DNA from: Dehalococcoidia bacterium | GTDB taxonomy: Bacteria > Chloroflexota > Dehalococcoidia > Lucifugimonadales > Lucifugimonadaceae | Direction: 5' to 3' | DNA length: 64,000 nt | Assembly (NCBI GenBank): GCA_026421185.1 | Contig: JAPKCH010000004.1 | Span: 1 to 64,000 of the forward strand | Shown here: positions 14,778-22,836 of the stretch, piece by piece | How positions within the stretch are numbered: the first letter of the stretch is position 1 | Layout of the letters: each line of letters opens with the position of its first letter | Position numbers and translations under genes: made by a program | Notes under the pieces: generated by a model | What the model was told of the DNA's origin: nothing | The model's input: only the letters and a program-made list of their open reading frames with translations | The model's database searches: none

Positions 14778-15773
14778 GTGGGATTTATAAAAACAACATT
14801 CGCTGTTCTCGGGGTTACTGCAGGTAGCTACGCAGTCATTTCATCGGCAATGGCGGCCAACCTGACCAGAACTCAACGACTCCGTTCGGAAGAGACGCCT
14901 GAGTCAGTTGGACTTGAGTATCGTGATGTGAGCTTCACTAGCCGAGGTGGAGACGCAAAGCTCTCAGGATGGACCATCACACCTGAGTCCGTATCAAACT
15001 CATCACATACGAACGCACGTGACACTTCATGGGTTATTATCGTCCACGGTGACAACACCAACCGAAGCGACGCTAGAACCGTCACGCTGGCAATCGCTCG
15101 TTCGCTCAGTCGCCGTGGATTCGGAATATTCATGTTCGATATGCGCGGTCGAGGCGATTCACCAGCAGCAATGTCGTCATCAGGATATTTCGAACGACTC
15201 GATCTTCAGGGTGCTTCCGATTATCTCGTTAGCAAAGGTGCCGACCGTAGCCGTATTGGCGTTCTGGGTTTCTCGCTGGGCGGTGCCGTAGCATTGATGG
15301 CAGGATCGAATCCCAACAACTTCGGGGCAGTCGTATCCGATAGTTCTTTCGCTGATTACTCACTGATACTTCGAAACTCCATGACAGGTATCAAACGTCC
15401 GTTTACGTTTTTGTTTCCAGGAATGGAATTCATGGCGAAAACTATTTACGGAATCGACATCAAGGATATTTCGCCAGCACGAGCAATCGCACGATCCGAC
15501 ACACCGGTGTTAGTGATTCACGGTGAAGACGACGCAGTGATCCCTGTGGAGCATGCTCGGCTACTTGGGCGAGCGATTGGTGCCAGCTTCGGCGAGATAG
15601 ATGGTAGCGACGAAACGATATGGATAGTTCCGGGCGCAGGGCACACAGGTTCGTTCAAAACCGAACCTAAGGCTTACATAAAAAAGTTGGTTAAATTCTA
15701 TGAGGCGCACCTAGGTGCACCTCATAGATCACATTTGACAGTGGCTGATAATTCTGAAAAATCAGAAGACTAG
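14778..15773 (+). CDS. Alpha/beta hydrolase (GTG start)
   Basis: VHGDNTNRSD; GVLGFSLGGAVAL; VLVIHGEDDAVIPVEHA; GAGHTGSF. Confidence 0.85.
   Translation: MGFIKTTFAVLGVTAGSYAVISSAMAANLTRTQRLRSEETPESVGLEYRDVSFTSRGGDAKLSGWTITPESVSNSSHTNARDTSWVIIVHGDNTNRSDARTVTLAIARSLSRRGFGIFMFDMRGRGDSPAAMSSSGYFERLDLQGASDYLVSKGADRSRIGVLGFSLGGAVALMAGSNPNNFGAVVSDSSFADYSLILRNSMTGIKRPFTFLFPGMEFMAKTIYGIDIKDISPARAIARSDTPVLVIHGEDDAVIPVEHARLLGRAIGASFGEIDGSDETIWIVPGAGHTGSFKTEPKAYIKKLVKFYEAHLGAPHRSHLTVADNSEKSED
15698..15727. repeat. 30-bp near-perfect palindrome at the 3' end of the hydrolase ORF
   Basis: ctatgaggcgcacct|aggtgcacctcatag, one mismatch pair; between convergent genes. Confidence 0.65.
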
Positions 15774-16132
15774 TCTGCAGGCAGTGCCGCCTGTGCTTGC
15801 CTTACAACCAGAGTGAAACCTTCAGGCTCACGTATTGCCAGTTCAGCGAGTGACTTTCGGTCGAGCTCGATGCCTGCTAATACCATGCCGTGAATAAGGC
15901 TTGCGTAGTTGATTCCAAGTGCACGTGCAGCAGCGTTGATTCGAACGATCTGGAGAGATCGGTTCGTACGCTTCTTCAAGCGGCGATGAGCCGTAGAATA
16001 TGCCTGTGCGTGAGTCAGTGACTCACGGGCGACGCGATAGCGCCTGCTACGTGCAGCCCTGTGGCCTCGCGTTGCTTTTAGTACGGCTTTATGCCGCCTT
16101 CGTGTCGTTTTACCGGCTTTAACCCTGGCCAA
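15770..16132 (-). CDS. rplT: 50S ribosomal protein L20
   Basis: MARVKAGKTTRRRHKAVLKATRGHRAARSRRYRVARES... Confidence 0.97.
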   Translation of the reverse strand: MARVKAGKTTRRRHKAVLKATRGHRAARSRRYRVARESLTHAQAYSTAHRRLKKRTNRSLQIVRINAAARALGINYASLIHGMVLAGIELDRKSLAELAIREPEGFTLVVRQAQAALPAD

Positions 16133-16209
16133 TTAATTTCTCCTTGGCGTCAATTGCGGAGCATCCGATGTAGCCCCAACAATGAACTCAGATAGTGGTG
16201 CAGTTGCTT

Positions 16210-16413
16210 CTAGTGAAGCGCGCTTATTGCCTGCTTGATTGTCTTCGAGAATGTCTTCGAGTCGAGAGCAACCTTACCGCCAAATAGACGCTTGACTCGT
16301 GAAGCCTTGCGTCGGCGGAAGTGGCTCTTCGGACCCTTTGACCGCAGCACCTTGCCGGTACCACTTATGTGGAACCGTTTTTTGGCGCCCTTATGGGTCT
16401 TCATCTTCGGCAT
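16210..16413 (-). CDS. rpmI: 50S ribosomal protein L35
   Basis: MPKMKTHKGAKKRFHISGTGKV. Confidence 0.97.
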   Translation of the reverse strand: MPKMKTHKGAKKRFHISGTGKVLRSKGPKSHFRRRKASRVKRLFGGKVALDSKTFSKTIKQAISALH

Positions 16414-16468
16414 ATCAGGTAATTTCCGTTCTCAATTCTCGTTTTCAGACAGTAGTTGCCTGAACTTA

Positions 16469-17071
16469 TTATTCTTTTGCAGAATCGCCGTTTGAAGGCG
16501 CTCCGCTCGTAGTCGCTACTGGAGTCGACTTCACTTGACGATCTCGTTCTTTCTGTTGAGGGGATGGTGCAAGCAATATACTCAACACTCGCCCTTCCAT
16601 ACCAGGCGGTTTCTCAAGTTTAGCGACTGTCGCTACACCTTCAGCAACTTTTCTCAGCACTTTCATTGCGATTTCGGGGTGGGCTCGCTGCCTACCTCGG
16701 AACCTAACGAATACCCTGACCTTAGCTCCTTCTGCAAGAAGCTTCTTTGTCATATTTATTTTCGTTTCGACATCGTTATCCGACATCACAGGGCTAAGGC
16801 GTACGTCTTTTTGCTTACTCGCACTTCGTGAAACCATGCGAGCTTCACGCTGCTTTTTGCTCTGTATAAATTTGAATCGACCATAATCCAGCAAGCGGCA
16901 AACTGGCGGACTTTGGTTAGGGCCAACCTCTACTAAGTCGAGACCCTCGTCCTCAGCCATTTCCAGTGCGTCACGAATGTGCATCACTGTTGAATCAGAC
17001 GAATCTTCTCCACGAATTACCCGAACCTCGTCGGCTCTAATTCGGCGGTTCACCCTAAATTCTTTTGCTAT
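16469..17071 (-). CDS. infC: Translation initiation factor IF-3 (probable AUA start at 17071)
   Basis: IAKEFRVNRRIRADEVRVI...; RLLDYGRFKFIQSKKQ; ORF track extends to TTG 17155 with a non-conserved N-terminus. Confidence 0.9.
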   Translation of the reverse strand: MAKEFRVNRRIRADEVRVIRGEDSSDSTVMHIRDALEMAEDEGLDLVEVGPNQSPPVCRLLDYGRFKFIQSKKQREARMVSRSASKQKDVRLSPVMSDNDVETKINMTKKLLAEGAKVRVFVRFRGRQRAHPEIAMKVLRKVAEGVATVAKLEKPPGMEGRVLSILLAPSPQQKERDRQVKSTPVATTSGAPSNGDSAKE

Positions 17072-17464
17072 GTTCGCGCTCCCTATGACACTGAGCAGAT
17101 AATACCCACTGAAATGCGTTCCTAAAACACCTGTCCGGCGCGCACTTCTTGCCAATGTCGAATTGGTCGAACTTTCAATATACCAACCATGCGCCCGATA
17201 CTCAATTGGAAACTAGCACGAATCTCTTCACTGTTGTTACACGTAATACATGTTGAGTCCACTGCATTGCCAAACCGTCGCTATGGTACGATTACTCCAG
17301 CTTTGGGTAGCAGAAATTGCCATCCAAATATTGTCTTGATATCAACGATTGAATCGTAGTGACCGAAATCAGATCCAACTTGATCCCCAAGTTACCAAGT
17401 AACTAACGGTCGGATCTATTACGATTAACCACACTTAGTAGTAACAATAGGACGGCCAGGACAA

Positions 17465-19405
17465 ATGAGTAACCGCTGGATGCGGAATAGCCTCCTCTAT
17501 CTCGTGATCATCGTCGCAGTGATCACCATTTTCTTCATGTTTGTCGATCAGCCAGCCAGTGGCTCAGAAGATATCGGCATAAACGAAGTTGTAGAGTTGG
17601 CAAAAAACAGTAGTGGATCTGCAAAACTTCAAATTGAAGTTGAAGGCAATTCGCTATCAATTACTGATGGTCTGAACACTTTCACTTCCGTTAAGGAAGA
17701 TGGATCGAGCGTTGCGGAGTTATTAAGCAATGCCGAAGTTCCGAGTGCCAATTACTCGCTGAAAGTTAATTCAGGAGGCGGATTAGGTAGCATCTTTGGA
17801 CTCCTTATAGGCTTCCTACCTCTAATCCTATTCGGAGGAATCCTGGTGTTCATGATGCGTCAGGCACAAGGCAGCAGTAATCAACAGATGGGATTCGGCA
17901 AAAGCAAGGCACGAATGTTCGTTGGCACCAAAGCCACGGTCACATTTTTCGATGTTGCAGGTATTCCTGAAGCAAAAGAAGAACTCGAAGAAGTTGTTGA
18001 ATTTCTCAAGTACCCAGAACGATTTCAAGCTCTGGGCGCAAAAATACCTGCCGGAGTACTCCTTGTAGGGCCTCCTGGTACCGGTAAAACGTTGCTGGCG
18101 CGTGCTGTAGCTGGTGAAGCCGGCGTACCGTTCTTCTCGATCTCGGGTTCCGAGTTCGTAGAAATGTTCGTTGGTGTGGGTGCGTCTCGCGTGCGTGATC
18201 TATTTGAACAGGCTCGGCGCCACTCACCCTGCATCATCTTCGTAGATGAAATTGATGCTGTCGGTCGACACCGTGGTGCCGGTCTCGGCGGTGGTCATGA
18301 CGAACGTGAACAGACGCTCAACCAGATGCTTGTCGAAATGGACGGATTCGATTCAACTACGAACGTCATCGTTATAGCGGCCACAAACCGCCCTGACATT
18401 CTCGACCCTGCACTTCTACGTCCGGGCCGATTCGACCGCAGAGTTATGCTCGACAGTCCCGATATTCGTGGGCGAACAGCGATTCTCGATGTTCACGCCA
18501 AGGGTAAGCCAATCGAAAAGGGTGTTGATCTATCAAACGTAGCTAAGCAGACTCCCGGATTCTCGGGAGCTGACCTGGCTAACCTAATAAACGAAGCAGC
18601 CCTACTAGCAGCACGAAATAATCAGAAACTGATTAGCTACGACAATCTAACTGAAGCTATTGATCGTGTATCGATGGGTCCTGCCCGCAAGAGCAAGGTC
18701 ATCAGTGAGAAAGAACGTAAGATCACCGCATACCACGAAGCTGGTCACGCGCTGGTCGCCCACCTTATGCCCGGTGGTTCGCCTATCGGCAAGATCTCTA
18801 TAATTGCTCGAGGTCAGGCTGGTGGATTCACTCGATGGCAGCAAGAAGATAAGTCTTACGCTTCACAAGAGCATCTCGAAGCACAGATCGCAGCAGCGAT
18901 GGGTGGACGAGCGGCTGAAGTACTGAAAGTCGGCGATGTCACTACTGGTGCGTCAAACGACTTTGAACAGGCAACCAGCATTGCGCGTGAAATGGTGATG
19001 CGACTTGGAATGAGCGACAGGCTATCAAAGCGATCATTCGGAAAACGACAGGGTGGAGCGGTGTTCTTGGGTCGTGAGATGTCGGAAGAACGCGACTACT
19101 CGCTGAAGACCGAAAGCATCATCGACGATGAAATCAACCGACTCTTAAGAGAGGGCGAAGAACGAGCTAACCAGCTCCTCAGCGACCACAATAAAGAGCT
19201 GGAAGGTATCGCCGAGTTCCTTCTTTTACACGAGACGATCGATGCCGAACAATTCATTGCAATAATCGAAGGACGAGACCCACTGCTTGCAAGTGCGTTG
19301 CTGACCGACGATCCTGCTTCTACGGATGAGCCATCAGTTCCAGTTGATGAAGTATCAGATGGGGAAATTGGCGAAGCTAAGAATCCGGAACCTCAAGCCA
19401 CTTGA
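17465..19405 (+). CDS. ftsH: ATP-dependent zinc metalloprotease FtsH
   Basis: [50 protein letters not shown]. Confidence 0.98.
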
Positions 19406-22526: not shown

Positions 22527-22836
22527 TCATGTCCGAACGCAACTTACAGACAAATTCATTATCAAACCGAAGCGATTCTCGCTCGGCTGGTTTCGTCTTC
22601 TGGCGTTCATCTTTTCCTGCTTCGTATAGTGCCAAATATTTTGGCTATGGCTATACCGACAGGCTGTTTATGTACGGACGTTCATATCGCAGCTAAGTCT
22701 GAATGGCCGTCCGCAGCCCCTCTGGATTTACGAAGCTCTCCCTCCCACAGCATGCAACTGTCCCGGTCTGACCGAATGAATCATGAATCCCCAGTTTTAC
22801 ACTCACTCCATAGCTCTTTAGAAACTTAATTCGATC

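Follow-up and report, generated by a model that had tools for sequence, protein, structure and literature searches.

An AUA codon as the probable translation start of infC in Lucifugimonas-type SAR202 genomes and across the Dehalococcoidia

The question raised by the infC gene on the minus strand of the window (the whole 64,000-nucleotide stretch of DNA that was analysed) is at which codon its translation begins, and whether that codon takes part in the control of the gene. The minus strand around the start reads ...CATAGGGAGCGCGAACATAGCAAAAGAATTTAGGGTG, in which the ATA at 17071-17069 shares the frame of IF-3, with AGGGAG and seven further bases being followed by ATA GCA AAA GAA TTT (from 17071) and the remainder of a complete IF-3 reading frame. 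The encoded protein was identified as IF3 by its score of 166.6 bits against the NCBIfam infC model TIGR00168 (cut-off 60) and by the presence of both Pfam domains, and infC is single-copy in the genome. Position 3 of TIGR00168 corresponds to residue 31 of the reading frame when it is read from the TTG at 17155, which places model position 1 at the ATA codon. A sequence-only reading of this DNA had proposed this in-frame ATA as the start, with an AGGGAG Shine-Dalgarno sequence (SD) 7 nt upstream, no ATG or GTG between TTG 17155 and the ATA, and no IF-3 character in the stretch before it. The letters read exactly so, the codon listing agrees (the only in-frame candidates there are a CTG at -9 and an ATA at -5), and the stretch 5′ of the ATA gave no match in the Pfam and NCBIfam libraries.

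The energy of pairing with the anti-SD was calculated as −7.1 kcal/mol for the ATA, +0.4 kcal/mol for TTG 17155 and −1.1 kcal/mol for an in-frame GTG at 17053, and of the window's 1477 ATA triplets a mere 1.7% have an SD as strong as that of the infC ATA. Judged from sequence comparison, translation of infC almost certainly starts at AUA 17071; comparative evidence thus gives infC a near-cognate start codon other than AUG, GUG or UUG, placed behind an SD. The coordinates of this and the neighbouring features are collected in Table 1.

Table 1 Features of the infC region in the window, with the evidence for each.
Feature	Position	Strand	Evidence
infC CDS read from the AUA, 200 codons and stop	16469..17071	-	PF05198, PF00707 and TIGR00168 matches; start kept in relatives
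Probable AUA start codon of infC	17069..17071	-	18/18 in the genus, codon-invariant; ~110/140 in the class
Putative Shine-Dalgarno AGGGAG, 7 nt 5′ of the AUA	17079..17084	-	Anti-SD pairing −7.1 kcal/mol; mean −7.5 over 17 congeners
rpmI (L35), the gene after infC in the cluster	16210..16413	-	Translation; named by sequence and the E. coli infC-rpmI-rplT order; ATG 17/17
rplT (L20), TTG start (16132)	15770..16132	-	Translation; named like rpmI; TTG 16/16, mean SD −8.7
Structured leader RNA, three-way junction	17079..17171	-	Covariation in 18 sequences; genus only, ahead of infC
Leader helices	17159-17154/17092-17087; 17144-17140/17119-17115; 17110-17107/17097-17094	-	Covariation
Leader closing pairs	CC 17166-17165 with GG 17082-17081 of the SD	-	Predicted fold
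Promoter-like TTGAGT-17-TATATT with TG extension; transcript predicted to begin at ~17170	17177..17205	-	Scan; spacing 17 in 18/18

The window belongs to a marine Candidatus Lucifugimonas-type SAR202 genome (Dehalococcoidia, Chloroflexota), and its close relatives are SAR202 Chloroflexota including the cultured Candidatus Lucifugimonas marina JH1073 (CP046147.1, L065), a species whose isolates are described in PMC10444878. Most of the genomes compared are drafts. In all 18 genus genomes with a complete 5′ end, the window's own among them, the SD is followed by ATA GCA AAA GAA TT(T/C). The codon alignment of these 18 genomes contains 124 fully conserved residues, a single codon being kept at eight of them, four of which are codons 1-4; beyond these, one codon is kept at 4 of 120 conserved residues. 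The internal Ile codons of the same genes are ATA in 20%, ATC in 30% and ATT in 50% of cases, so ATA in all 18 is not expected of an ordinary internal Ile, with a formal probability for 18/18 being inappropriate because of shared ancestry.

The survey was extended to 140 infC genes of the Dehalococcoidia using a rule by which ATG, GTG, TTG, CTG, ATT, ATC and ATA were weighted alike and the codon with the best SD was taken. ATA was picked in 105 genes, and when near-ties were read manually by position, 110 genes had ATA at the matching codon, two had ATA two to three codons upstream, and the others had ATC (11), ATT (6), CTG (4) or TTG (7). No convincing ATG start of infC was found among the 140 genes: the only ATG with the best SD, in L199, is 31 codons 5′ of the asparagine in the RVN motif, and the similar L181 and L196 have ATT at the usual position. 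Eighty of the 140 genes contain no ATG, GTG or TTG at all from the upstream stop (or from 47 codons) to the domain. The E. coli infC gene, included as a control of the method, gave ATT behind GGAGG, as expected. The alignment of related genes that the sequence-only reading had suggested as a check therefore finds the ATA kept in all 18 genus genomes and in about 110 of the 140 genes of the class, nearly all with an SD; relatives starting at an ATG elsewhere, named there as counter-evidence, were looked for as well and not found, the ATA standing at this codon in both sets.

Five single-contig Dehalococcoidia genomes of 1.4-1.9 Mb (G070, G099, G142, G116 and G163) have the ATA behind AAGGAGGT or GGGGAGGT. 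The 28 infC genes from other Chloroflexota are divided between ATC (12), ATA (8), ATT (7) and CTG (1), and phyla beyond Chloroflexota were represented only by a few loci from Planctomycetes and Armatimonadetes and by E. coli. On a quick tree, at least 20 changes are required when the codons are labelled as AUA or other and at least 26 with a five-codon label, which means that the infC start codon does change, yet without settling on AUG. The comparison shows the start site, the SD in front of it and an avoidance of AUG throughout the class. In some members of other Dehalococcoidia families (L217, L219, L222, L223 and L228-L231) infC is apparently started by TTG or CTG and not by AUN, and as TTG is a codon tolerated by IF3, a start of the AUN type is not universal. 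Two infC matches each were observed in the drafts G085, G089, G211 and G217, which may reflect a split gene, contamination or an additional gene copy.

A non-AUG start of infC is in itself of a known kind, with AUU used in E. coli and AUA in S. aureus. According to PMC5472188, initiation on any codon but AUG, GUG and UUG is destabilised by IF3, and the E. coli gene with its AUU start is under IF3 feedback. The S. aureus infC start at AUA was seen by Ribo-Ret ribosome profiling, and AUA starts of other genes of that species gave ~10-30% of the AUG reporter output (PMC13009471). The view that AUA would be another non-AUG solution is thus supported, though S. aureus infC is a precedent for it. 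That system is alike in the gene, in the AUA codon directed by an SD and in the autoregulation proposed there too; it differs in belonging to another phylum and in having ribosome data, whereas the AUA of the Dehalococcoidia is seen class-wide by comparison. The E. coli gene likewise has an AUN codon with a third-base mismatch and an SD and is followed by rpmI and rplT. Unlike the gene considered here, it starts with AUU and follows thrS, while infC in the window has AUA, adjoins a divergent ftsH and possesses its own promoter-like site and leader.

By analogy with E. coli, it is reasonable to suggest that IF3 regulates its own synthesis in the Dehalococcoidia. The initiator tRNA (CAU anticodon) would read the infC AUA with a mismatch at the third position, which the strong SD would offset, and a high level of IF3 would lower its own synthesis and a low level raise it, since initiation complexes on codons besides AUG, GUG and UUG are disfavoured by IF3. 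The AUA start and IF3 feedback, taken jointly, are given a probability of roughly 0.8. In three related genomes, those of L. marina and two relatives, the initiator-type tRNA carries the usual CAU anticodon, so special decoding of AUA is not needed, and a special AUA-reading initiator tRNA was rejected on this ground. A search of the window's draft genome by anticodon-stem pattern did not find an initiator tRNA, which is perhaps absent from the draft or has a variant stem.

In the genus, infC is preceded by two further elements. The promoter-like TTGAG(T/A)-17-TATATT with TG extension is common to all 18 genomes, the end of its -10 element lying 98-127 bases 5′ of the ATA, and the predicted leader RNA that follows it has a three-way-junction structure conserved by covariation, with 91.2% of the alignment cells pairing and both partners changed in 11 of 17 pairs. 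None of the five measures used was reached by more than 2 of 500 shuffles, and slid partners pair in no more than 55%. The two outermost pairs, between CC near the 5′ end and GG of the SD, are almost invariant and hence beyond the reach of covariation; in the predicted fold these closing pairs may extend into the SD. Folded as a single sequence, the window's leader does only mildly better than its shuffled versions (z −2.0), so support for the leader is comparative, and nothing special is seen in the folding of the short stretch 17130-17040, the signal being located in the full leader. A covariance model of the leader found one copy per genome in the 18 genus genomes, each directly ahead of infC, and no match in 41 genomes outside the genus. 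It also matches L067 (SMWD01000155.1), a contig left out of its building; the record is titled Gammaproteobacteria and carries a SAR202-genus infC with the leader, so its title looks wrong. Rfam gave no match at the gathering score, and when 15700-17500 was searched by cmscan with the complete Rfam 15 model set, none appeared at E ≤ 1.

Within the genus Lucifugimonas the leader probably adds a second control over access to the SD, which may be exerted by L20, IF3 or another factor. This could be taken further to suggest that AUA merely lowers the output of infC and that the real control lies in the leader RNA, to which L20 perhaps binds, with IF3 feedback being minor. Such a reading gains from the possible pairing of the covarying leader into the SD, from rpmI and rplT coming after infC, and from B. 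subtilis, for which PMC6097659 describes an RNA that interacts with L20 and regulates the synthesis of ribosomal proteins, a structured leader before the same infC-rpmI-rplT genes. The window's leader differs in matching no Rfam model even at E = 1, and it is restricted to the genus while the non-AUG start is class-wide, which makes the start codon independent of the leader and the leader improbable as the main control. A wider version of IF3 feedback was also considered, namely that AUA itself, rather than any non-AUG codon, is kept class-wide because the mismatch at its final A determines where the point of IF3 feedback lies, and that Lucifugimonas combines it with an undescribed SD-gating leader in a two-layer control of infC-rpmI-rplT; this proposal is a tentative one and somewhat doubtful.

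Two other start sites remain to be weighed against AUA 17071. The GTG at 17053 (MNRRIRADEV...) is in frame, GTG is present there in 14 of the 18 genus genomes, and the Pfam IF3_N match begins at this codon; nevertheless, it has no SD, four congeners have GTA or GTT at its position, other codons are found there outside the genus, and four invariant codons lie 5′ of it, so that a start there is very improbable. The TTG at 17155, from which the frame is open and which is also present at -28 in L003, L005 and L011, would yield a protein with a 28-residue N-terminal extension (including MARSARRTGVLGTHFSGYYLLSVIGSAN) and is scarcely credible, as it has no SD, is located within the conserved helix 17159-17154 and just ~15 nt from where the transcript is predicted to begin, survives in some near relatives only and gives an extension with no IF-3 match, the upstream frame in other congeners being closed, or shifted because leader lengths differ by something other than a multiple of three. 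Conservation reaching up to this TTG, which had been named as evidence against the AUA, was looked for and found to stop short of it. Both codons were rejected as infC starts, being poorly conserved and having no SD.

A limited search of open-licence full texts found no description of a class-wide infC AUA or of the genus leader RNA. AUA is prevalent in the class, which has cultured organisms among its members, and is invisible to gene callers restricted to ATG, GTG and TTG, so infC may well be mis-annotated across the class. The class also provides a natural series (AUA, AUC, AUU, CUG and UUG, with no convincing AUG) in which the start codon can be set against IF3 feedback, and in the leader RNA a widespread clade of the ocean offers a specific candidate regulator of a ribosomal operon.

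About 20 genes in the surrounding 20 kb were compared in up to 17 congeners with regard to the specificity of this start. Most of them have a conserved column of ATG, GTG or TTG close to the 5′ end, and only infC combines a conserved, SD-preceded ATA with the lack of any canonical start carrying an SD; the frames 17126-17359 (+) and 22527-22829 (+) are weakly conserved and show no clear start. As far as these alignments go, the AUA start looks specific to infC. The SDs of the neighbourhood are mostly weak, with strong ones at infC (mean −7.5) and rplT (mean −8.7, the strongest mean), and we infer that their strength at these two genes fits compensation of a weak start codon.
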